A stretch of DNA of 64,000 nucleotides from Eximiradius sp. GTDB lineage: Bacteria > Bacteroidota > Ignavibacteria > Kapaibacteriales > UBA2268. A program made the position numbers and the translations under genes. The DNA lies in assembly GCA_937127445.1 (NCBI GenBank), contig CAKZLY010000014.1:5001-69000 (forward strand). Reading direction: 5' to 3'. The stretch's first letter is position 1. Each line of letters opens with the position of its first letter. This document shows, in pieces, positions 36,194 through 50,153 of the stretch. Under the pieces are notes generated by a model that saw only the letters and a program-made list of their open reading frames with translations, did no database searches and was not told the origin of the DNA.

Positions 36194-39100
36194 TTATTTC
36201 ACTCTTACAACTTCGCGAGTGATAACGTATGGACCAGCTTCGATACGAACTATATACATACCAGAAGCAAGATTCATTCCGCTCAAGCTGAGAGTATGGC
36301 TGCCAGCCGAGTAAAACTTGCTCGATATAAGCGAAGCAACCTTGATACCCATTGTGTTGTAGAGGCTTACAGATACATTACCATCCGTTGGGATAGTAAA
36401 TGTAACTTTTGCTTCGTCTGCAAATGGGTTAGGAACAACTTCAACATTGTAGCCGAGAGCAACCGGGTCGTCGATACCAGTTACACTACCTTTGATTTCG
36501 AATGGACCAGAGCGATGGTATTCGAGTTCAGGAATATTAGCGTAAATTGCGCGAACCCAAGCGTTCTTTGTATTGACGTTCGGCACCATCCAGTCGAATG
36601 AGCGGAGAGATGCTTTGAAATCCCCTGCAAGAGTATTCCAGGTAGCGCCGTTATCGATAGAGTATTGCAAAGTAAATGTATTAACATTCTCGTGTACCCA
36701 GCGAACAGGGCGTTTTTCGCCGAAGTTCAACTTATCGTTTGCACGAGGATTAGTAATTACAAGTGTTCCAGAGAGAATTCTGAATGGTTCGGAAACTGCA
36801 AGCACTTTGCCAGTTGCTACATCAACCATACGAACAACAGCGTTCTTAGTATTTGCAGCTGGGATAGTCCATTCAACTTCTTCTTTGTTGGTGTTTACTG
36901 TTCCAGTAACAACAGTCCAGCCATCAACGCCGTTTGCGGAGAATTCGAAACGAACATTTGCGTTGTCCTTCGAAGTCCAGCGGATGAAGTCTTTCTTGCC
37001 GCTTGTGTAGATTGGATCAGTTGAAGCAGGACGAGTAATTTCAGCCGGAACGGAGAATATAGTAAATACAGCGTCGCTTCTATCGAGTTCTTTGCCAGTT
37101 GCAGCATCGAGCAAGCGAACAAGCATTTCGCCAGAATTGAGGCGTGGAGCAATCCAATTGAAGCCTAATTTGAGAGCATCAACAGGTGCCTGGTTGATAC
37201 GTACCCAGGAAGCACCATTGTCGGCTGAATATTCGAGATAGAGTGATACGCCTTCGACATCGAGCGGAGCAGTCCAGTTAATTGTATACATCGAACCGCC
37301 TTCCCAAACTTCGCCGCCATTAGGTGCAACAACAGCAAAGTTTTTAGTGATAATGATCGGTTTAATGTCTTCGAATACGCCAACACCTGTAATAATTTTG
37401 CCGTCGGTCGACAATACAGCGCAAGTATTACTCCAGTTAAAGAATATGCTCTGGTCTTTGCGTAAGAGTTCAAATCTCAATGTGCCAAGATAAGTATTAA
37501 CTCTTGGAACAATTTGACCTGGACGACGTGTATATGCATCCCAATCAACTTCTATCGAACGTGTGTTTGGAACAGGAATATCAGTTAAATTAGTTGGTGA
37601 AGTGTAAATCGGGCCATAACCCAAATCGAAACGATTATCGAAAATTACTTCGTTGACTTTTACAAGCTCAGCAAAACGAACAACTGTTGGGTCGAAGTTA
37701 ATCGCAAATGTTGCATTCGCAAGAGCAAAATCAGCACCAGTATTGCGAATGTAGATTGGAACATCCACAAAATTGCCGTTGAGTTGTGGCATCGCAATAA
37801 CACGGTAGGACAATCCGCCAGACAGAGTTTGGTCGTATTTGCTAATGATAGTTGAAGAATGAACTTCACCGCCTTCATTGAGATATAATTTAGCATCAAC
37901 AACAAAGCGTTTTGAAAGTTCAGGAGCAAGTGGATAGTAAACGCTCATTGGATCTGCGTCTGAAATGTAAGAGAATGGATTGCTTTCGATAGAATTAGGA
38001 GTTTGTGGATAAACATATTGAGTGTTCAAAGCAAGGTTGCGAAGTGATGAAACCTTGTTTGTATTGTTATCAACAATAGTTCTATCGATAGCATTTGCAA
38101 CGTTATCGCCGTTTACGTCGTTCGATGCATCAGTCGAGAGAGCATTGACGCGAACCTTTGCACGGTCGGCAGCATTGATTTGACCATCGCGATAGACGTC
38201 GCCACCAACCATAGCAGGCAACGAATTCGGACTTGTTATATTATTGGCAGCGCCACCATCGTTGAAGTTCAAGCCAGTTGATGCCCACTTGGAATTGTAA
38301 CGGTCAGGAGTATAGTTTTGCTCATCAGCATAAGCAGTATAGCGAGTGCCGTAAGCAGGTGGTTCTTGACGAGCTTCGGTCGAAGTAATCAAGTTGTTGT
38401 CAGTTCCATCCCAAGCTTGGAAATCCCAACCTGATTCAATATCCCAGCTTGACAAATTGTCCCCAACATAATAGAATGGAGCAGCGTAAGCAGACATCAC
38501 AGGCAAATAGTTCAAGTGATCAATAACTACGAAGTAGCGACCGTCGGCAACGTCTGTGAGAACAAATGGGACATTAGCAAAGTTGTTAGCACCGCCGTTT
38601 CTGTTGATGATAAGCTTCGATTGAGTAAAGTTGTAGTATTTGTCTGTCGAAAGTACAGTACTATTAGGGACATACGAACCCGGAACGCCCGAATTATCTT
38701 CGAACAGACGAATTCTCAAGCCTTTGTTCGCAAAGTTTGTCCCAATATTATTTATAATACCGCTTGCATATCCACCGTGGTAACCATCTAAAAGAACGCG
38801 AACAGTAAAGTTACTTGGAGGAGTAATGTTAAATTGTGCACTCTCAGTGATAAGAGTTTGCATAAATCCATCTGAACCGTTATCGTATTCAAATGCATAA
38901 GGAGTATTGATATTAGCGCGGGCACGAAGTCTTAATCTACCGTTTGTCATTGCAGCACCAATAACGCTTTGGTCATTGTAAACACCGTCTTTGTTAGCGT
39001 CTGGATCTGCAATTGAGCAGTTGAGAATACCTGCATATTGAGGTTTAGAAGCAACACCCATAAATTCGTATTCAGAAGTTGCTGTCGGCAGAGTAAGAGC

Positions 39101-42100
39101 ATTTGTATAACCAGCATTTTGGTACACACTCGAAACAAATTGATAAGGAACGTTAGTATTTCCAGCACCACCACCAGTTGAGAACTCTAAATCAGCTTGT
39201 TTTGACGAAGTTCCATAGGAGAATGCGACACCATCATTGCGATTATAGTCGAAACCAACCCAACGAACTTTAAGAGCTGTTTCGGTATTTTTAACTGCTT
39301 GCAGATAAACAGGTTCAACTAATTTAATAAATGGAGTTGTCGATTCGTAGTTTGCAGTTGGATCTGGATTAATGCGAGCAACTAAATCTGCATCATAAGG
39401 TGTCATTTCGAAAGCACGAGCTTTGCCGTAGTTAACCCAGCTATTACCGTTGAACGAGTAAGCAGCGATGAGGTTCTTCGTGTAGTCCACTCCGCCAAAC
39501 ACACCGAGCTCGCTTGCACGAACGTTAGTAGCGCCTTGAACAAACTTAATCATTTCGTCTGTTGTAAGAACACCGCCAGGATTGCCGCCCCAGAAGCGCA
39601 ATTCACGGAATTCTCCATCAAAACGACGAGCAACATTTGTTCCAACAACTGGTTCATAGCCAATGTAAACTGGTGAAGAATTAGTCTTATCAACAGTTAT
39701 GCCTGTACCAAGTTGTCTCATAATTGGATTAGTTGCTTCTAATGCATCGTTGCGAGTCCAAGTTAGCTGAGGAACACCATCAACGAAGAATAGAATTTGT
39801 GATTGCGAACCAACCGATGGAATGTTTACCCAAACACCAACGTGTATCCAAACGGAATCAAATTCAACAGTGTTAGGATTGAGTATTCTATAAATTGGAT
39901 CGCTAACAGCTGTGCGAAGAGTACGAGTTCCATTATCAAGCGAGGAAACTACAAATTGCAACTGCCCCGTCGAAAGAAGTCTCAAAGCATATTGCAAAGC
40001 TTCGGCTTCTGTTGCAGCGTTAGGATTCTTCTTAGCAACGATAGGATAGTAGTTCCCTTCGGTATTTTGTGGGAAGCTATAAGGCTTAATCCATGTTTCA
40101 AGGAAGAAAGTTTCGCCAGTAATATTAAGTTTAGTATTTGCTGGAATGCTTACAATTGAATTCTGACCATTTTTGTAAGCAAACCAAGGAGCAACTTTGA
40201 AAGGTTGTGAGATATAATAGATATCTTGCTGGTTGCGGGCTTCGGAACCACTTATTCTCATCAATACATTTTTTTCGTAGTTCCCAACAAATGGAATAAC
40301 TCCTTGCAAATCATTCATTAATCCAGAAATTGTAACGTTGTTGTATGGTTCCCAGTATGCATAAGCATCTTCGACTTCAGCATTGTCTATAGGCATTGCC
40401 GGAGTTTGGTTGTCTAATGCATCGAACCACGTATTACCACCATCGCGACTGATTTGGATCATTACATCACCGTAGGTTGCAGTCGGTTTTGGAGTTAAAC
40501 TTCCGATACCATAAGAAACCCAACGAATTTCGTAAATTTTACCTTTTAAGTTGCTAACACCTTCGCCACCATTTGGTGAAGTTAGCTTTATATGAGAGCG
40601 ATCTGGACGATAACGAATAGAGTTGTTATTTGGCGTTGAAGTCAAGCCGGGAGTTGTAAAGAAATTCAAGTCGTTATTGCTTTGTTGATATGTTTTTTCA
40701 TTAGCTTTATCCAAACGTGAAGCTTGCAATGGGAAGTAAAGCTCAAGCCCGGTGCGCCAATCGTTTGGACCATCAGTAATCGCAGTAATCGAACCATTCG
40801 GATCGTAAACTCCGGGGATATAACGACGCAATTGACTTTGTTCTAATGCAACACGCCAAACTTTCACTTCTTTGATACCGCCATAGAAGTAATCTTGTGG
40901 TTGCATCCCATTGTTCGGATTGACGCCAACCCAAATAGGCATTTTTACGTTCAATGGACGGATATTCGGAGCACTTCTATTCACATAGCGAGCAACTTCT
41001 TCTCCGTCAACATAAAGAATCACAGTATTGTTGGAAACAACGCCTGCAAGATGTGTCCAGGATAGTGAGTGTTGGTCTGTCAAATTAGGATTGTTGCCAT
41101 ATGCAACCAATGGAGCTGGGCACACAACATCGCCAAGCACACTCCCATCAGCAGCAGTTACGCGAAATGCTGGATAAATGCCATCGCGAAGATATAACAT
41201 CCAGCCATAATCTGCTTGCGATGCATTCCCTGAACTTGCTGCAACAATACCCGGATTAGTTCCTACTCCATTAGAAACATTCAAATTCACCCACGCTTCC
41301 ACTGTAAATGAGTTTGGAGTGGAGAAGTTTCTAACCGAGCGGAAGTAAGTAGTAGCACCGTCAAACTGAACAAAGAACAAGCGACCAAGAATAAAAGTTT
41401 CGTCCGATTCGTCCATTCTGGTTGGGCTTGTGTAAGCTGGACGGTTGCTTTCAGCAAGGCTACCACTTGTGCCATCGAGTTGAGTAATTCTAATTTTAGC
41501 GTTTTCGCTTCTGAATGGGAAATTATCATCTGCTTTCCAGATAACACGAAGAACTCCACCATAGCCCCAGCCAAGTAAACCAGGACCATCGGGTTCGTCT
41601 TGCAAGAAAGCAGCAGCTACATCTGTTGGAATAGGATCGACATTACCTGTAGTTACAAAGTAGTCGTCAGTTACATCAAGACTGTCTATCCAGCCTAATC
41701 TGTATGTTGGCAGATCAGCAGTAGCAATGAGCGAAGCTTTGTCGCGGCTTTCTGCTACACGTCCAAACTCAGTGTATGTTGTGCCTCCATCGAGCGAATA
41801 CTCAAGGCGATAAGCAAATCGACGAGTACCATAAGGATCTGCAAGCGTTGGAGTTGCAAGACCAGAACGTTCAAAATAAATTGGGTAACCGCGATTAGCA
41901 CGCATTGATAGATAAGGACTTTCTGGATAACGGTTAACAGTTTGATTCAACTGATTAGGATTTAGAACTGTAATACCACGAATTGTAAATGGTGTAGGAT
42001 TTACAAATTCAACCTGGTTTGTAACATTAGTAAGTCCATCACCACTCATTACAACAGTAGTGTTGAGCGAAGTGTACGGATTGAACCGAAATTCTGCCAA

Positions 42101-42640
42101 ATCAGCATCAGTTAGTGCATCTGCATTTAGAATATTGAAGCGAAGAAGTCCAATAAACGACCCGCGACCAGTGGAAGCAGGTGCAAAACCAGGACCTAAT
42201 GTGCTTGTAACATTAACGTCCAAAACTGCAACGTATCTCATTGTCCCACCAACCAAACCAGAAACGCTTGTTCCGCTGAGAGCAGCAAAACCACGAGCAG
42301 GTTTGTTGTGGAATTCTGATTCAATAATATAATATGGTAATGGCTCCGGAGCATCAACATCAAACTGAATTGCATCAGTTTTCGATGATGGTTGATTAGC
42401 AAGCGAGAAGTTTGCAGCTTGAAGTTTAGCACCATTATACGAAACACCAATGTTCATTGCTCCGAGCGGACCAGCATTTGGCGAAAGAGAGCGGACCCAA
42501 ATTTCAACTCCCAGTTGATTACCCATTCTGCGCGGGGTAAGCGTCATCTGGTAGTTGTAAGTTTGAGCAAGCGATTCGGCGGCTCCTGCAATGAGTAACA
42601 ACGCCAGCCAAAATGCACTCAAGAATTTTACTTTTTTCAT
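36194..42640 (-). CDS. giant T9SS-exported multidomain protein (cohesin-like, LamG, dockerin-like)
   Basis: 2148 aa. Signal peptide MKKVKFLSAFWLALLLIAGA; cohesin-like beta domain at about 30-220 (GVEIWVRSLSPNAGPLGAMN); a LamG/concanavalin-like domain at about 420-625 (FTVEAWVNLNVSNG, VILYVDGEEVARY) and a second at about 820-1040 (FFLETWIKPYSF, ILFFVDGVPQLTW). A dockerin-like pair of calcium loops follows at about 1475-1530 (GGDVYRDGQINAADRAKVRV, DVNGDNVANAIDRTIVDNN), then a second cohesin-like domain (about 1600-1760). Three repeats of the 'PNGGEVWEGGSMYTINW' surface-protein type precede a type A sorting domain (NPFADEAKVTFTIP ... LASGMYIVRIE). It is probably surface-bound or secreted; the ligand is unknown. 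Confidence 0.88.
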   Translation of the reverse strand: MKKVKFLSAFWLALLLIAGAAESLAQTYNYQMTLTPRRMGNQLGVEIWVRSLSPNAGPLGAMNIGVSYNGAKLQAANFSLANQPSSKTDAIQFDVDAPEPLPYYIIESEFHNKPARGFAALSGTSVSGLVGGTMRYVAVLDVNVTSTLGPGFAPASTGRGSFIGLLRFNILNADALTDADLAEFRFNPYTSLNTTVVMSGDGLTNVTNQVEFVNPTPFTIRGITVLNPNQLNQTVNRYPESPYLSMRANRGYPIYFERSGLATPTLADPYGTRRFAYRLEYSLDGGTTYTEFGRVAESRDKASLIATADLPTYRLGWIDSLDVTDDYFVTTGNVDPIPTDVAAAFLQDEPDGPGLLGWGYGGVLRVIWKADDNFPFRSENAKIRITQLDGTSGSLAESNRPAYTSPTRMDESDETFILGRLFFVQFDGATTYFRSVRNFSTPNSFTVEAWVNLNVSNGVGTNPGIVAASSGNASQADYGWMLYLRDGIYPAFRVTAADGSVLGDVVCPAPLVAYGNNPNLTDQHSLSWTHLAGVVSNNTVILYVDGEEVARYVNRSAPNIRPLNVKMPIWVGVNPNNGMQPQDYFYGGIKEVKVWRVALEQSQLRRYIPGVYDPNGSITAITDGPNDWRTGLELYFPLQASRLDKANEKTYQQSNNDLNFFTTPGLTSTPNNNSIRYRPDRSHIKLTSPNGGEGVSNLKGKIYEIRWVSYGIGSLTPKPTATYGDVMIQISRDGGNTWFDALDNQTPAMPIDNAEVEDAYAYWEPYNNVTISGLMNDLQGVIPFVGNYEKNVLMRISGSEARNQQDIYYISQPFKVAPWFAYKNGQNSIVSIPANTKLNITGETFFLETWIKPYSFPQNTEGNYYPIVAKKNPNAATEAEALQYALRLLSTGQLQFVVSSLDNGTRTLRTAVSDPIYRILNPNTVEFDSVWIHVGVWVNIPSVGSQSQILFFVDGVPQLTWTRNDALEATNPIMRQLGTGITVDKTNSSPVYIGYEPVVGTNVARRFDGEFRELRFWGGNPGGVLTTDEMIKFVQGATNVRASELGVFGGVDYTKNLIAAYSFNGNSWVNYGKARAFEMTPYDADLVARINPDPTANYESTTPFIKLVEPVYLQAVKNTETALKVRWVGFDYNRNDGVAFSYGTSSKQADLEFSTGGGAGNTNVPYQFVSSVYQNAGYTNALTLPTATSEYEFMGVASKPQYAGILNCSIADPDANKDGVYNDQSVIGAAMTNGRLRLRARANINTPYAFEYDNGSDGFMQTLITESAQFNITPPSNFTVRVLLDGYHGGYASGIINNIGTNFANKGLRIRLFEDNSGVPGSYVPNSTVLSTDKYYNFTQSKLIINRNGGANNFANVPFVLTDVADGRYFVVIDHLNYLPVMSAYAAPFYYVGDNLSSWDIESGWDFQAWDGTDNNLITSTEARQEPPAYGTRYTAYADEQNYTPDRYNSKWASTGLNFNDGGAANNITSPNSLPAMVGGDVYRDGQINAADRAKVRVNALSTDASNDVNGDNVANAIDRTIVDNNTNKVSSLRNLALNTQYVYPQTPNSIESNPFSYISDADPMSVYYPLAPELSKRFVVDAKLYLNEGGEVHSSTIISKYDQTLSGGLSYRVIAMPQLNGNFVDVPIYIRNTGADFALANATFAINFDPTVVRFAELVKVNEVIFDNRFDLGYGPIYTSPTNLTDIPVPNTRSIEVDWDAYTRRPGQIVPRVNTYLGTLRFELLRKDQSIFFNWSNTCAVLSTDGKIITGVGVFEDIKPIIITKNFAVVAPNGGEVWEGGSMYTINWTAPLDVEGVSLYLEYSADNGASWVRINQAPVDALKLGFNWIAPRLNSGEMLVRLLDAATGKELDRSDAVFTIFSVPAEITRPASTDPIYTSGKKDFIRWTSKDNANVRFEFSANGVDGWTVVTGTVNTNKEEVEWTIPAANTKNAVVRMVDVATGKVLAVSEPFRILSGTLVITNPRANDKLNFGEKRPVRWVHENVNTFTLQYSIDNGATWNTLAGDFKASLRSFDWMVPNVNTKNAWVRAIYANIPELEYHRSGPFEIKGSVTGIDDPVALGYNVEVVPNPFADEAKVTFTIPTDGNVSVSLYNTMGIKVASLISSKFYSAGSHTLSLSGMNLASGMYIVRIEAGPYVITREVVRVK

Positions 42641-42830: not shown

Positions 42831-45800
42831 TTACGGTGTTACCGAATATATTTCGCTACCATAGGTCGATACTTGTAGTATGTATTCTTCGCCAGACTTA
42901 GTCCAATAAGAACCGTCGGCACTGAAGATACGTATTGTGTATGTACCGGCTGGCAGACCGTTTATTACTGCCGCCTCACTTGATTTTCCGTTCAATGTGG
43001 AACGTCTGATGCGGCGTCCTGTTGTATCATAGAATTCTAATGTATAATCACCGGCAAGATTGCCAAGTTTTACTCTTACATTCGGTGTTGTGCTGGCAAC
43101 TGAGAAGTTGAACCAGTCCTCGTCGGTCGAGCTCTTAACAGTTCCGCGAACAGGAACGTTTGTGCCGATTGCTTTCGATAGTGCTCTTGTATTGTTTACG
43201 CCGAATGTTACATCATCGTCGTAGCTACCGGTTGTTTCGAACGATTTCGGGTTCCCAGCAGCAGCTATTGTACGATAATGTTCGTTTCCATCTGTGCCGT
43301 TGTATTCAAATACATATACGTAATACTTAGTATTCGGAGCAAGCCCAACGACATTGATACTGTTGCCTGTTCCATTGTAAAGAACTGTTGCACTACCAAG
43401 ATTAGAGCCCAACCCAACAATAGTATTGCCGTAATAAGTTTCACCATTTGCTGGATATTCAGTTAGTCTTAGCAACGTATCAGGCTTTATGATTACAATT
43501 CGAGCATTACCACCACCGTTTGTCCAGCTGATAGTTGCAGTTGTTGCAGTGATATTGGTAAACGTCAAAGCAGTTGCCTGACTAGTTGGGGCAGCAGGAA
43601 GCACATCAAACAACTGGCTAACAGTTGACAATGCTTCGCTTGGAGAAACTGCACTTACAACAAACTGATGGTTTTTACCAGCAGATGTTGTGATGGAAAG
43701 CCCTTGCAATGTTACGTAGGACTGGCCAGCAGGTATTACACCAGCGAGCGCATTGCCACCATTGAATATACCGGCACCAATTTGCTTGTCTATCTCGAAT
43801 GTAAACGGAGAACTTACTGTAACTGCTTGCCCATACTCATTCTGTAACTGCACAGTTACATTAAATGCTTGGTTGAGAACAACTGGCGTTGGTTCAATGC
43901 TTGTGATTACAAGTTTATTGCCTGTAACCTTGATTGCGGCATCTTTTGCAACATCTGTATTAGCAGTTGCTACAAATATTGCCCAATCACCCGAAAGTGC
44001 TGTTGAACCTTTTATTGGGTAGGCAGAAGTTGTTAATGTCTGGCTTGAATATGTTAAATTGTTACGATAATCAACCCAGGAAGTGCCTCCCCATTTTGCC
44101 ATAAATGTAGTACCACTTGCAGGAGTTAAACTATTGTGTATAGTACTTGGCCATTCGAATTTAACTTTTATGCTATCGTTAATCGCTGTTCCTTCGGGAG
44201 TTATTCTCCACAAAGCAAGCAATGCACGTTTGGCATCGCCACCTTTGCCTACTGTCGGATTAGTGTAGAATGGTCTAATCACAACAGCTTGCTCGCTTAT
44301 TGGTTTTGAAAATCTCAACTCAACAGGTATATACTGTCCACCATTACCAATGTCAAATCTTGTTACTGTATTCTTCACATAACGACGTAAGTTTCCAATA
44401 ACATAAGATGTTGGAGTAAATGCCGGCAATACCGCATTCGGCCCGAATGTCAAAATATTGTCATTTGTTGTGATGCTGAATGCACCTGTAAGTGTCCCAT
44501 TTATTCTCAAATCTCCTGCAAGGATGATTGTATTTGCTATTGTTAAATTGTTACATTCGTTATTTCTGAACATAGTTGCAGGAATGGTAAGATTTGCAAT
44601 GTTTGGCAATACAACCGATGAACCTGTCCCCGCCTTTATTCCGCCAGAAATCATTACAAGGTTGAATGATGTGTTGAATGTCAGCGTGTAAGTACCTAAA
44701 TCGAAATCATTTATTCCTGTATTAATGCGCAGATATGATGTATTTGCAATGTTCAAATTACCGCCCAATGTTTCCTGACGTGCAACTTCGAGCTGAACAG
44801 TAGTTGCAGCAGTACCAACAAAGTACGAATTGCTAAGCCCGTTGGTAACTGTTCCTGTCCCTTGCAATACAAGGCGGGACGCAGTTAAATTACCAGCAAG
44901 CAAACCTGTCGTTCTTGTCAAATTGCCATTAAGAATAAGTTTCATTGGGTTTACAGCACTTGCACCAGAACCAATTGTCAGGTTTGCAGTTGCAAGATCT
45001 AATGTCCCATTAACTGTCAGGTCGTTTGCAGTTGTGTGAGCAGCGTTTATTGTTAAATTATATAGAGTTGGCACTCCACTAACTGCGAAATATGCATCTT
45101 CTAACAATGGTGTCACGTGGTTAGTTGCAACAATGTAAGTTCCTGTTCCACCATTGATAACACCATTGGTACGGCTTATTTGACCAGCGCCCACTGTAAA
45201 TGTCCTGCTGCCAAGATTCAATATACCATTAGTAAGCACTAGTTCGTGGTTTGCATTTGATGCAATTTGAGTATTAATTTCCAGCAATAATTCTGAGTTG
45301 CCTGTTTTATTTAAAGTTACATCTGCAAATTGAATTGGTGTAATCGCCGTAGTCGCTCCTGTAATCTTCTGCAACGAACTTCCGTTGAATATCACTCTAC
45401 TTGCATCATTCGCTGTGAAGTCCATACTTGATGTTCCATCGATTACCAAATCACCAGCTACAAATAATTCTTGTGCTTGGTTTGGAACTACTAATGCAGT
45501 TGGACCAGTTGTACGAATGCTATAGAATTGCGTAGAAGCAGGTGAGATGCTCGAAATTCGCGGAGCAGCCCCGGTAAATGTAACAGTTCCACCTGTTGCA
45601 GTAAATTTACCACCAGCACCAGAATTAAGGAAAGTACTTGCACCTGTACCAGTAATTGTGAAATCCGAGGATGTTGCGACTTCGTTATTTGCAGCAGCAG
45701 TAATTGTGATTGTTCCAAATTCAAGACGACCCGCATCTGATTTCACTATCGTCTTTGGATTGCCTGCCGAAACGCCTACACCAACATCAAATGTAATTAC

Positions 45801-48800
45801 CGATGCAGCATTACCAACGTAGAATTCACCGTTGCCTTCCACCTCGATACCTGCACCAAGCGGATTAGTAGCATTATTGCGAATTGTAAAATTGTGATTT
45901 GTATTTGTTGTTAGCTTTGATCCATTAGCAACTTTAATCTTAAAGAAACGCAATGTCCCTGCATTATTAATGTATTTTTCCTGTATATTCTCGAATGTAA
46001 TAGTTCCGCCATCGGCTAGCAACGAACCGCTAACTACCAAATTCCCCTTTATCTTCCAGCTATCTGAGGTATTTACTATTCCAATAATAGTCAAATCGTT
46101 AAATACAAGCGTTTGGTTTGATGCGTTGTAAATATCACCATTACCTGTGAATGTAATTGTTCCATTATTTGCAATGAACGAACCATTTACCTTAACATTA
46201 ATTTCTTTCTTAACGTTAAAGTCGTTGCTTGTTACAACCTTAGATCCTTCAGAAACTTCAAATTCATAAAATTCAAGCTCAGATGCAGTTTGCGTATTAA
46301 TTATCTCGCGTTGTCCGAGGTTGCTGAATATTACTTTACCGGATGTCGGCGAAAAAGCATCTGAACCATATTGATAGAAGTTACCTTGTATATAAGCCGT
46401 CCCAAGTGGAACAAATGTTTGAGTACCACCCGACGAATTAAGTTCAACATTAAATAATTTCAGTGTTCCGCCGGATTGAACGCTCCAAGGGTCGCCAGCT
46501 CCAGCAACTGCTGTTGTGAAATATGCGGTCCCACCTGTCGCGTTGAATGTGGAGCCACTGCGAATATCTAATTGATTAGTTAACGTAAAGTTATTTTGAG
46601 TTACAACGTTTGCATTATTATCAGCACGTATTGTTCCGAAACTTAAGAATGCGGACTGAGGAACGCTTATTGTTTGCATTGGGTCGTAACCGCCCCAGAA
46701 CTCAACGTTCATACCTTGAACCGCACTATTTGCAAGAAGCGATACATCGCCACTTATGCGAATTCTATTGGCCGAACCTGTTACATCGGCAGCATTTACA
46801 GTGAAATTATTAACCCATATACCGCTACCAGTTGTATAATCATTGTTTAAAGTAATTGTCGAGCTCACTCCTGCTGTAACGCCATCACCAATAATAAGAT
46901 TCAAACGACCTGTTCCGTTGGCGCCCAGAATTTCAGATCCAGCTGTAAGCGTTATGTTACCCATTACACGCAACGACACATTATCGCCATTAACCGTATT
47001 ATTTGCCGGTTGCACTGTTGCATTTGCATGGTTAAGTACAAGTGTTTTACATTCGTATATAGAACCATTACCGTTTACTGTAACTGTCGCTGGACCTATT
47101 ACTACTTGGTCAACTTTTGTTGGAACGCCCACAGGCGACCAGCTATTCGGGTTGCCCCAGTTGCCGCTTGTTCCTACAAATGTACGAAGAACACCTCCAT
47201 CGCCAGGTGCCGCTGCCAATGCGTAATAGTTTGCTGTTGCAATATTAACACCTGTTACTGCCAACTGCCCTTTCCCTGTTACTGGGGTGTTCTCTGTTAC
47301 CGTACCTGTTACTTCAGTTGGACTTGTAACAAAAGTATAATCAGTTGTATAATACAATTTTAAATCTGCTGCATTGCTATATAATTCTGTGTTGTCGAAA
47401 GCGAATGTTACAGCCGTAACATTCGCACCAGCTGTAATATAATATACTCTATGCGTTGCAAGACCAACACCCGCAATTGGAACTGTTCTTGGATAACGGC
47501 GAACAACTATATTCGTAGCTGCACCCGCAGTTATTGATGGCACACCTATACCGCTTGTACCAATATTAGCAGCAGTCGTACCTGCTGTTGCCGTAGTAAC
47601 GTATCCAGTCCCAGATGTGCTCAACCCTGTGTTTATTATTGTATTGCCGGCTGTTTCCGATATTTGAGCATCCACATCAGCCAGCGTCAGATTGAAACCA
47701 TTCAAATCTAAGTCGCCAAGGACTATGTCCACATCGTTGTTGGAGGCAGTTCCATCGCCAACAGTTAAGCCGACCATCAACTTCATACCAGTAGGGCGAT
47801 TTAAAATAAGTCTGCCCAAAGTTGTTACACCCGCAGGCAAAACAAACTGCGATGATGTCCCTTGAATTGATAATATTGTCGAAGCATCAGTGGTATATGT
47901 TCCATTTCCTATCATTTGTCCACGCAAAGAAATCGTTCCACCATTACCATCAAGTGTTAATGTCCCAGCATTTGAAACATCACCATAAACAGTTAGGTTA
48001 TATGTCGCTTTATCTAATGTCGCAGCGGAAGAAACTTGTAAGTTGCCATATAATGTTATACCTGCTGTTAATAGAGTGGTACCACCAGTAATAGTTAAGT
48101 TGTTTAGCGTTGTAAAACTAAAACCCGTAGTACTAGCATTTATGCTAAAATTCGTCGTTTGATCTGTTGTTAATGCACCTGCAACAAATGTTGGAGCGGC
48201 AGTAAATACAACTGTCGAACCGCTTGTTGCATCCATAATAAAGTTTGTTGCTGCAGCAGAAGTATATGTCCCACTAAAAGTAATAGTGTTACCATTGATT
48301 ACTAACGTCCCTTGTGCAAATTCTGTTGCATCAACATTGGAGGTAATAGTTAAATCGTTGTTTAAGATTACTTTCCTTGCAAGCGCACCACGGCTAACTC
48401 GCAACATATTCAGTTGAGTTATGCTCGATGGAAGCTCTATATCAGATGTTTGAGTTGAAAGAATTCTTAATGTTGTATATTGATTTGTTGTTATACTTCC
48501 AGTATAAGTATAATTACAACCAGCAGCTATTACAATTAATGGCTCATCTGCCGCATTCCCTCCGTTAGCTATGATACTTCCGCTGCCAGATAAACCAGTT
48601 GTAAATGTTATTCCATTATTTGCTGTTGTTACAGCGGACAAATCTAAAATCCCATTTGCTCCAATAGTTGTAGTTGTTGTTACTGTATGTGCTTCGTCAG
48701 GAAGCGCTACTGTACCAGAAGTTATTGTCAATGAATTAAATGTTACTGCAAATGCACCTGAAACAGTAAACGTTGTATTTGGTCTATTCAATGTAAAATT

Positions 48801-50153
48801 GCCAAAGTTATTAGCACCAGCAATTGTAAATGTTGGCAAATTGCCAGAACCTAAAATCTGCAATGTTGTAGCTGATGTTGTAACAAACTCGGTTTCATCG
48901 GTTCCCCAGTTAGTTACAGGTCCATATAAAATTACAGTAGAACCACTTGCAACAAAATCGCCACCATTAGGATTAGTAAAGGTCCCATATACAGTAAATG
49001 TGTTAGATCCAATAGTTGTTGTACCAGCTGCTGTTCTAACATAATTACCATATACTGTTATATTCCCAGCCATTGTAACACTATTGTTATTTACTGTTAA
49101 ATTATGAACTGTAAGAGCAGGCAATTGATCATCAGCAGCAGTCTGGTTTGCGTTGAATGTCAAATTTGTATTCGAGTTAGTATTTAGCGTGAGATTGGTA
49201 AATGTAACAGTACCTGTAAATGTCACAGTCGAGCCAAGTGCATTAATTGTAGCACCAGAAGCTGCACCAGCAATGGTAGAAGCAAATGTTGAGGTAGAAT
49301 TATTTATTGTTAATACACCAGTTGCAGGAATGGATAAAGCTGCCGTAAATGTATTTGTTACACTTCCACCAGTGGAAATAAGATTACCATTGAGCGTTAT
49401 TGCACCGGTAAAGGTTCTGGTTTTGGTTGCTGTTGAAGCTGCATTTAAAGTAGCACCAAGTGCAATAGAGGTTGTTGAAGAAGCTGTTAAATTATTGTTT
49501 CCTACAATAAGAGTACCTGATGTAACCGTTAAGGCACCTGTTGAAACTGTTAAATCATCTGATAAAGTGCAAGTACTCCCCGGTTTATTTATTGTAAATG
49601 TGTTCAATGTGGTTAATTCAGTTGGCAGAACTACTGCAGTAGTACCAACAACAGATAGGATAGGAGGAGTTGTGTTAGTAATCGTAGCATTTGTTGCTTT
49701 TGTCCAAGTACCGCTCAATGTAACAGTTGCAGCAGCAGTACTAAAAGTAATGTTCGAGTTGTCATTTTGAACAATATCGCCACGATAAGTTGCATTACCA
49801 ATATTAACTGTAACTGCCGCATTAATTATAAGCGATGATGTCCCATTCAGTGTAATACCACCAATTCCAGTAGTAGCAATATTAGTTGCTTGTGTTATTG
49901 TCAAAGTGGAATTACCGTAAATGCTAATTGTTCTTGCATTTACTGCACCTGATGTGGTTACATTGAAGCCCGTTGGAATAATTACGTCGTCGCTTGTTGT
50001 TGGAACTAATGCCGGCGACCAGTTACTTGCAGTGTTCCAGTCAGCACCGGATCCAACGAATGTTATAGTTGCAGAGTTGAGCATCCCTGCACTTAAAAAG
50101 GCTAAGATTGCGGTAATAAGGCTTAATCTTAGCAATCGGTTTTTCTTTTTCAT
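42831..50153 (-). CDS. giant exported beta-helix-like protein with FN3 and PPC-type domains
   Basis: 2440 aa with a signal peptide (MKKKNRLLRLSLITAILAFL, ending near SAGMLNSA). Most of the chain is Thr/Asn/Gly/Ala-rich short beta repeats of the type 'NLTVNGTLDLATANLTIGSG', as in secreted beta-solenoid adhesins. A module beginning TFVGSGADWNTASNWSPALV starts the mature protein and recurs near residue 990 (TFVGTSGNWGNPNSWSPVGV). Near 2060-2190 lies an Ig-like domain, near 2195-2290 a fibronectin III-like domain (TNITATTATISWTNGGGNAR), and near 2315-2440 a pre-peptidase C-terminal (PPC)-like domain (DEDWFNFSV, LPAGTYTIRIFSADG). No classic type A sorting domain is visible. The many long antisense open frames are by-products of its composition. 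Confidence 0.85.
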   Translation of the reverse strand: MKKKNRLLRLSLITAILAFLSAGMLNSATITFVGSGADWNTASNWSPALVPTTSDDVIIPTGFNVTTSGAVNARTISIYGNSTLTITQATNIATTGIGGITLNGTSSLIINAAVTVNIGNATYRGDIVQNDNSNITFSTAAATVTLSGTWTKATNATITNTTPPILSVVGTTAVVLPTELTTLNTFTINKPGSTCTLSDDLTVSTGALTVTSGTLIVGNNNLTASSTTSIALGATLNAASTATKTRTFTGAITLNGNLISTGGSVTNTFTAALSIPATGVLTINNSTSTFASTIAGAASGATINALGSTVTFTGTVTFTNLTLNTNSNTNLTFNANQTAADDQLPALTVHNLTVNNNSVTMAGNITVYGNYVRTAAGTTTIGSNTFTVYGTFTNPNGGDFVASGSTVILYGPVTNWGTDETEFVTTSATTLQILGSGNLPTFTIAGANNFGNFTLNRPNTTFTVSGAFAVTFNSLTITSGTVALPDEAHTVTTTTTIGANGILDLSAVTTANNGITFTTGLSGSGSIIANGGNAADEPLIVIAAGCNYTYTGSITTNQYTTLRILSTQTSDIELPSSITQLNMLRVSRGALARKVILNNDLTITSNVDATEFAQGTLVINGNTITFSGTYTSAAATNFIMDATSGSTVVFTAAPTFVAGALTTDQTTNFSINASTTGFSFTTLNNLTITGGTTLLTAGITLYGNLQVSSAATLDKATYNLTVYGDVSNAGTLTLDGNGGTISLRGQMIGNGTYTTDASTILSIQGTSSQFVLPAGVTTLGRLILNRPTGMKLMVGLTVGDGTASNNDVDIVLGDLDLNGFNLTLADVDAQISETAGNTIINTGLSTSGTGYVTTATAGTTAANIGTSGIGVPSITAGAATNIVVRRYPRTVPIAGVGLATHRVYYITAGANVTAVTFAFDNTELYSNAADLKLYYTTDYTFVTSPTEVTGTVTENTPVTGKGQLAVTGVNIATANYYALAAAPGDGGVLRTFVGTSGNWGNPNSWSPVGVPTKVDQVVIGPATVTVNGNGSIYECKTLVLNHANATVQPANNTVNGDNVSLRVMGNITLTAGSEILGANGTGRLNLIIGDGVTAGVSSTITLNNDYTTGSGIWVNNFTVNAADVTGSANRIRISGDVSLLANSAVQGMNVEFWGGYDPMQTISVPQSAFLSFGTIRADNNANVVTQNNFTLTNQLDIRSGSTFNATGGTAYFTTAVAGAGDPWSVQSGGTLKLFNVELNSSGGTQTFVPLGTAYIQGNFYQYGSDAFSPTSGKVIFSNLGQREIINTQTASELEFYEFEVSEGSKVVTSNDFNVKKEINVKVNGSFIANNGTITFTGNGDIYNASNQTLVFNDLTIIGIVNTSDSWKIKGNLVVSGSLLADGGTITFENIQEKYINNAGTLRFFKIKVANGSKLTTNTNHNFTIRNNATNPLGAGIEVEGNGEFYVGNAASVITFDVGVGVSAGNPKTIVKSDAGRLEFGTITITAAANNEVATSSDFTITGTGASTFLNSGAGGKFTATGGTVTFTGAAPRISSISPASTQFYSIRTTGPTALVVPNQAQELFVAGDLVIDGTSSMDFTANDASRVIFNGSSLQKITGATTAITPIQFADVTLNKTGNSELLLEINTQIASNANHELVLTNGILNLGSRTFTVGAGQISRTNGVINGGTGTYIVATNHVTPLLEDAYFAVSGVPTLYNLTINAAHTTANDLTVNGTLDLATANLTIGSGASAVNPMKLILNGNLTRTTGLLAGNLTASRLVLQGTGTVTNGLSNSYFVGTAATTVQLEVARQETLGGNLNIANTSYLRINTGINDFDLGTYTLTFNTSFNLVMISGGIKAGTGSSVVLPNIANLTIPATMFRNNECNNLTIANTIILAGDLRINGTLTGAFSITTNDNILTFGPNAVLPAFTPTSYVIGNLRRYVKNTVTRFDIGNGGQYIPVELRFSKPISEQAVVIRPFYTNPTVGKGGDAKRALLALWRITPEGTAINDSIKVKFEWPSTIHNSLTPASGTTFMAKWGGTSWVDYRNNLTYSSQTLTTSAYPIKGSTALSGDWAIFVATANTDVAKDAAIKVTGNKLVITSIEPTPVVLNQAFNVTVQLQNEYGQAVTVSSPFTFEIDKQIGAGIFNGGNALAGVIPAGQSYVTLQGLSITTSAGKNHQFVVSAVSPSEALSTVSQLFDVLPAAPTSQATALTFTNITATTATISWTNGGGNARIVIIKPDTLLRLTEYPANGETYYGNTIVGLGSNLGSATVLYNGTGNSINVVGLAPNTKYYVYVFEYNGTDGNEHYRTIAAAGNPKSFETTGSYDDDVTFGVNNTRALSKAIGTNVPVRGTVKSSTDEDWFNFSVASTTPNVRVKLGNLAGDYTLEFYDTTGRRIRRSTLNGKSSEAAVINGLPAGTYTIRIFSADGSYWTKSGEEYILQVSTYGSEIYSVTP

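Follow-up and report, generated by a model that had tools for sequence, protein, structure and literature searches.

Cohesin-like domains and an X-type dockerin in one T9SS-tailed multidomain protein of a Kapabacteria-type bacterium

Introduction

A 64,000-nucleotide stretch of DNA from Eximiradius sp. (Kapaibacteriales; contig CAKZLY010000014.1 of assembly GCA_937127445.1, positions 5,001 to 69,000; hereafter the window) encodes a 2148-residue protein that carries cohesin-like domains and a dockerin in one chain and ends in a sorting domain of the type IX secretion system (T9SS). The locus raises the question of what such a combination is for, namely whether the dockerin binds cohesins of the same protein, whether the cohesins hold other proteins, or whether both are structural parts. 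The original prediction held that cohesin and dockerin normally sit on different proteins, and that having both would allow self-association into fibres or a non-cellulosomal surface scaffold; it proposed structure prediction of the domains and a search for dockerin-only partners in the genome. We found no description of such a chain in the accessible portions of the literature searched, in which dockerins of Kapabacteria and the Ignavibacteria were included and outside which most subscription journals lay. What is new here is that cohesins are joined to a dockerin subtype otherwise seen without them in the frames examined. We favour, at a probability of roughly 0.53, a T9SS-exported multidomain adhesin in which a composite of the dockerin and the domain before it (X domain) serves as a calcium-binding structural module, while the cohesin-like domains are stalk modules or docking sites.

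Results

Domain organization and export signals

The domains of the protein are arranged as follows.

36194..42640, minus strand: 2148-residue multidomain protein with T9SS tail (open reading frame, ATG start; domain scans)
42566..42640, minus strand: signal-peptide-like N-terminus, residues 1-25 (judged from sequence alone, no predictor)
41996..42565, minus strand: probable cohesin-like domain 1, residues 26-215 (hhalign to cohesin 2)
40832..41347, minus strand: LamG (concanavalin A-like) domain 1, residues 432-603 (PF13385)
40196..40588, minus strand: immunoglobulin (Ig)-like domain between the LamG domains, residues 685-815 (hhalign)
39587..40150, minus strand: LamG domain 2, residues about 831-1018 (PF13385)
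38231..38824, minus strand: X domain just before the dockerin, residues 1273-1470 (profile matches and hhalign)
38036..38221, minus strand: dockerin with two calcium-loop repeats, residues 1474-1535 (PF00404, alignment, PDB profile)
37337..37828, minus strand: cohesin-like domain 2, residues 1605-1768 (Pfam, AlphaFold2, Foldseek, VIA-align, hhalign)
36485..37336, minus strand: three Ig-like repeats, residues 1769-2052 (hhalign; Kre9/KNH- and Reelin-type Pfam matches)
36206..36436, minus strand: T9SS type A C-terminal sorting domain, residues 2069-2145 (TIGR04183, 3.9e-9)

Scans of the whole protein detected the LamG, Ig-like and T9SS-tail domains. PF13385 matched two stretches at 2.2e-23, above its cut-off and best at residues 432-603, and the second LamG domain gave 1.2e-7, which bears out the two LamG-like domains first proposed. 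When the Ig-like domains were compared by hhalign, the region between the LamG domains resembled the first C-terminal Ig-like repeat (96.7%, 46 columns), and Ig2 matched Ig3 and Ig4 at 99.3% and 99.2%, respectively. The proposed T9SS sorting domain was recovered by TIGR04183 at 36.4 bits (cut-off 23) and by PF18962 at residues 2070-2140. The genome also holds a SprA_N match in one frame of contig C18, SprA being the T9SS part that was looked for; with a sorting domain in the protein and a SprA match in the genome, the protein has the features of a type A T9SS cargo. Neither cohesin nor dockerin was seen in the whole-protein Pfam scan, the latter even at E<=1, and the domains were therefore examined singly and by family.

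Dockerin and cohesin-like domains

The excised 62-residue dockerin scored 25.5 bits with PF00404 (cut-off 22.9), while within a 263-residue context it fell to 20.2 bits, under the cut-off, and the PF00404 search of the genome did not pick it up. Each of the 11 family members gives a PF00404 match at E<=1, and the family dockerin profile retrieved solved dockerins from the PDB from 1.9e-6. In the calcium-loop numbering that we take to be the usual one, Asp occupies positions 1 and 12 of both loops in 11/11 members, and position 5 in 11/11 for loop 1 and 10/11 for loop 2 (Asn in L022); position 3 of loop 1 is non-canonical, with Tyr, Val or Ile in 8/11. By its profile matches and loops the segment is a real dockerin, as the original prediction had it from the double calcium loop, and the loop residues suggest that it binds calcium.

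Of the two cohesin-like beta domains originally proposed, cohesin 2 is well supported and cohesin 1 is probable. Cohesin 2 matched PF00963 at 0.027 (15.1 bits, under the cut-off of 24.1), and 7 of the 11 family members match at E<=5, the best at 0.0011. AlphaFold2 gave a modest model, in which the mean predicted local distance difference test (pLDDT) score was 35.2 over residues 1273-1768 and ten-residue blocks of the cohesin 2 part reached 30-73. When this model was searched with Foldseek, all 42 matches at E<=0.001 were cohesins or cohesin-holding entries by their titles, and the best VIA-align row had Z 11.2, a root-mean-square deviation of 2.8 Å and 127 aligned residues, where rows without cohesin in the title reach Z 8.9. 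Hhalign against class cohesins gave 93.9% over 99 columns for cohesin 2 (93.6% under another column rule), against 1.6% or less for other regions of the protein.

The weakest part of the domain set is cohesin 1, whose assignment comes from profile comparison. It resembles cohesin 2 at 95.6% over 145 columns (1.3e-8; this and the other hhalign E-values are from single comparisons with no database behind them), while 11 other regions of the protein gave 4.2% or less against cohesin 2. Its alignment leaves aside L017, which lacks the region, and L020, where unknown bases interrupt the N-terminal part. Against class cohesins it reached 66% over 38 columns, or 49% over 39 by another column rule. 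PF00963 gave no match to cohesin 1 of the window protein and matched 1/9 members at E 0.01; in the genome search PF00963 missed both cohesins of the window protein, and neither the cohesin 1 profile nor that of cohesin 2 retrieved the other domain at E<=1. The AlphaFold2 model of cohesin 1 (3 rows, pLDDT 34.6) was unusable. Searched with Foldseek, it gave no match at E<=0.001, and none of the 50 matches listed was a cohesin. The proposed structure prediction thus gave a cohesin jelly-roll fold for cohesin 2 only, and unusable models for cohesin 1 and the dockerin.

Cohesins and dockerins across the class

Across 100 genomes of the class, 39 had a dockerin match and 67 a cohesin match (E<=0.001); 32 had both, 7 dockerin only, 35 cohesin only and 26 neither. 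For at least 30 of the 85 dockerin matches, distributed over 19 of the 39 genomes, a listed cohesin lies in the same open frame, downstream in 20, upstream in 15 and on both sides in 5. In 17 of the 20 dockerin-then-cohesin cases, 69-132 nt separate the dockerin from the first cohesin after it. All 13 frames inspected run from dockerin through a linker and cohesin to a 'YPNPFNP' T9SS-type tail, preceded by a beta-helix-like region by eye in 11 and by a further cohesin in L041 and L047. The class cohesin profile found a cohesin in 17/30 dockerin frames, one of which (L062) belongs to the window's own family and is matched by its own profile, as compared with 0/11 other T9SS-tail frames of the window's genome. 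Both modules in one chain are thus not unusual, and the view that they normally sit on different proteins proved too strong, given these class frames and the published cases described in the portions consulted of PMC3413522 and PMC9012536.

By eye, a layout of beta-helix-like region, dockerin, short linker, cohesin and T9SS-type tail is repeated in L064, L065, L068, L069, L077, L080, L083, L085, L086, L051 and L055.

Dockerin subtypes and the X domain

Sequence comparison separates at least two dockerin subtypes in the class. Cohesin-linked dockerins read like 'GDVSLNGIVQAYDASLILKYVV', while the second subtype reads like 'GDVNQDGVINALDR...' with 'NN' or 'N.G' near the end and is mostly chain-terminal. 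In the first scoring, all 11 members of the window's family scored 39-56 bits to C-terminal dockerins versus 11-22 bits to cohesin-linked ones. Since 13 of those 17 C-terminal dockerins had been found solely by the family's own profile, this comparison was partly circular, and it was therefore repeated with Pfam-found dockerins. The repeat scored 69 of the 85 dockerin matches, leaving out 3 family members (G098:C27 and, twice, G071:C15) and 13 others. Each of the 15 nearest to the family lies at a chain C-terminus, in a fetched frame where no cohesin was seen, and 14 of them came from bacterial family f10; 31 of the remaining 54 had a cohesin. These labels cover about 0.7-1.5 kb on each side, so that more distant cohesins would be missed, and the labelling profile was built from class cohesins including some of the same chains. 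Dockerins with and without a cohesin in frame, compared alone, differ modestly (medians 14.8 vs 19.0 bits, p = 0.02).

The X domain follows the same division. An X profile match (E<=0.01) was found in the stretch before 15 of 21 C-terminal dockerins versus 1 of 48 others. By hhalign the X profile matched 16 domains preceding C-terminal dockerins at 96.5% (8.3e-10, 95 columns; 16 of 17 sequences were used, L112 being left out for its length). The corresponding comparison with what precedes 15 cohesin-linked dockerins yielded 0.35%. Of six control regions, only the T9SS tail exceeded 1.2%, with 45% over 50 columns. As judged from these profiles, X and dockerin form one unit; in other proteins it stands at the end of chains in which no cohesin was detected. 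At E<=1e-5 the complete unit was seen in the window's family only, in 3/100 class and 5/198 phylum genomes (the window's own counted); at this threshold, alignments of the X-dockerin profile with f10 and G140 proteins cover chiefly the dockerin. All six f10 genomes sampled have dockerin matches and no PF00963 match. In addition, the residue after loop 2 is Arg in all 11 family dockerins, while in the 16 cohesin-labelled dockerins the residue caught after a loop is Ala, apart from one Gly (L047) and one Phe (L048). By our domain limits, some 70 residues separate the dockerin from cohesin 2, versus 23-44 in 17 class tandems. Where it ends a chain, the X-dockerin module may serve for sorting or anchoring, or may dock to cohesins that the model missed.

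X-dockerin-like modules at or near the chain end were also seen in L043, L058, L059, L063, L106-L116 and L124-L136 (f10), and outside f10 in L119 and L120 (G140) and L138-L140 (G096, G013). L058 and L059 are glucose/sorbosone-dehydrogenase-type proteins that end in or near such a module. Among 147 initial dockerin candidates in the f10 genome G070 and 229 in G097, 57 per genome were scored, which gave 9 matches in G070 and 5 in G097.

Family and upstream neighbour

Three named database relatives are in metagenome-assembled bins labelled Candidatus Kapabacteria (93%), Bacteroidetes (94%) and Candidatus Kapaibacterium (59%; a fragment), by best segment. Matches at E<=1e-30 occur in 12/149 class genomes, and in six of these 12, the window's own included (G000, G071, G098, G104, G111, G128), they cover most of the chain; G071 and G098 hold a second copy. 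Distant relatives keep the domain order over most of the chain at 38-44% identity in 6 of 7 copies, and the seventh matches in two pieces, at 37% and 30%. The loci with relatives over most of the chain are L015, L016, L018-L022, L029 and L030, and L017 is a fragment. A second giant gene lies directly upstream.

42831..50153, minus strand: 2440-residue fn3-containing giant with a weak T9SS tail (open reading frame, Pfam, T9SS-tail scans)

Next to the relatives, this neighbour is present whole in L015 (80%) and truncated at the contig end in L016 (82%), and its C-terminal end is present in L018 and L019 (31-32%). It was thus seen at 4 of 10 loci compared, several of which hold no more than about 0.5-1.5 kb upstream and one of which (L034) overlaps L030.

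Possible partners in the genome

Dockerins were found in two proteins of the genome, the window protein and one of 493 residues (L001); a further match, at E 0.53, spans 14 positions. The cohesins found are those of the window protein and, weakly, one in L002.

L001:814-2295, own genome, contig C14: 493-residue dockerin protein with a long divergent dockerin and a weak T9SS-like tail
L002:1093-3264, own genome, contig C26: 723-residue protein with HYDIN/ASH-type Ig matches and a weak T9SS tail

These searches were non-exhaustive, since the window's dockerin escaped PF00404 and L001 escaped the family profile; within them no dockerin-bearing enzyme was found in the genome, both dockerin proteins being non-enzymes by Pfam. 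The proposed search for dockerin-only partners accordingly yielded one candidate, L001, which is not an enzyme by Pfam. Its tail matches PF18962 at 22.5 bits (cut-off 27), and L048, from a different genus of the order, is related to it (35% over residues 14-308); in L048 the class cohesin profile gave a weak match (4.9e-4). By eye L001 had been read as cohesin-dockerin-cohesin, and this reading was dropped, neither Pfam nor the class cohesin profile finding a cohesin in it. The cohesin match in L002 is sub-threshold, at residues 495-588.

Discussion

In the reading that we favour, the protein would be exported by the T9SS and probably be bound to the surface of the cell. Beta-sandwich domains, cohesin-like and Ig-like, would form a stalk, on which the two LamG domains would probably bind glycans or matrix proteins. 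The X-dockerin composite would bind calcium and most likely act as a rigid internal spacer rather than as a ligand of the chain's own cohesins, and the cohesin-like domains would most likely be stalk modules, or dock something other than this dockerin. The non-cellulosomal exported protein of the original prediction is well supported, while a role as a scaffold holding other proteins is conjectural.

Several observations weigh against a structural role of the X-dockerin unit. The dockerin ranks with the better conserved segments of the protein, which also fits binding, and AlphaFold2 gave an unusable model of X and dockerin (residues 1273-1768, 4 rows; blocks of pLDDT 20-35). Dockerins and cohesins co-occur in the genomes of the class (Fisher p = 0.016, uncorrected for relatedness), and dockerin-cohesin tandems recur there. 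The separation of subtypes stems from the C-terminal, mostly f10, group, and relatedness may be its cause. Since PF00963 missed the window's own cohesins, the finding of no cohesin elsewhere is weak; X-type C-terminal dockerins also occur in G013 and G096, which have PF00963 matches, and the cohesin-linked frame L042 has an X match as well (0.0089). Given the co-occurrence and the conservation of the dockerin, both self-association and the docking of other proteins keep some weight.

Docking of other proteins, in which the cohesins would hold dockerin partners such as L001 in a minimal surface complex, is a doubtful but serious alternative. No dockerin protein besides L001 and the window protein was found in the genome, the weak T9SS-like tail of L001 and its relative in another genus fit this role, and profile searches could overlook further partners; the L001 dockerin is, however, of a divergent, long type, and no dockerin-bearing enzyme was among the proteins found. 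We regard as unlikely an assembly in which the dockerin binds a cohesin of the next chain, giving calcium-dependent fibres or a surface layer, or one of its own chain, closing a loop. Both partners do lie in one chain and are kept through the family, and short-linker tandems recur in the class, but the family's dockerin belongs to the subtype not linked to cohesins, and the Arg after loop 2 and the long linker to cohesin 2 also argue against such binding. In line with this, the self-association of the original prediction found no support, the 15 dockerins nearest to the family being chain-ending and free of a detected cohesin in their fetched frames. The more specific proposal, that the protein polymerises through a calcium-dependent, unconventional contact between X-dockerin and its own cohesins into a one-protein fibre built of cellulosome parts, seems to us distinctly unlikely. 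Finally, the segments might be unrelated beta-sandwich and EF-hand-like sequences. Whole-protein Pfam saw neither domain, cohesin 2 stays under its cut-off and the cohesin 1 model is useless; the above-threshold score of the excised dockerin and its matches to PDB dockerins, the Foldseek and VIA-align results for cohesin 2, and hhalign all speak to the contrary, so that we consider miscalled domains very improbable overall, and already unlikely for dockerin and cohesin 2.

Known systems, as described in the available portions of the cited papers, offer partial parallels. Scaffoldins of Acetivibrio cellulolyticus (PMC3413522) and Pseudobacteroides cellulosolvens (PMC5590126) combine cohesins and a dockerin in one chain, the latter with X60 modules directly before the dockerin. 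Such clostridial scaffoldins share with the window protein the two modules in one exported chain and an extra domain directly before the dockerin, our X domain being likened to the X60 modules by this position only; the window protein differs in its T9SS tail, its dockerin subtype and the absence of any dockerin-bearing enzyme among the proteins found. Anaerobic methanotrophic (ANME) archaea have proteins that combine a dockerin with as many as five cohesins (PMC9012536) and that are likewise non-cellulosomal, with both modules in one chain and partners that are unclear, although they are scaffoldin-like by description, have another domain set and occur in genomes with many dockerin proteins. 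In Candidatus Stygibacter (Cloacimonadota), a scaffoldin-like protein joins tandem cohesins to a T9SS-type C-terminal domain (PMC8542988). It resembles the window protein in carrying cohesins on a chain anchored through such a tail; the Stygibacter system pairs a tandem-cohesin scaffold with enzymes that bear C-terminal dockerins, whereas the window protein has two cohesins and no such enzyme was found. Within the class, L064, L065, L069 and L080 also have a dockerin upstream of a cohesin and a T9SS-type tail, but with short linkers and 'AYDASLILKYVV'-type dockerins, the window's family being of the other subtype.

If the fibre of cellulosome parts did exist, it would be a T9SS-displayed, one-protein surface fibre in a lineage without a recognised cellulosome. 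The results also show that the Pfam model can miss cohesins of such bacteria. The class appears to split into dockerins that travel with cohesins and X-unit dockerins that mostly end proteins without a detected cohesin. As the present chain mixes an X-type dockerin with cohesins, it is well suited for asking if a calcium module of dockerin type implies cohesin binding in every case.

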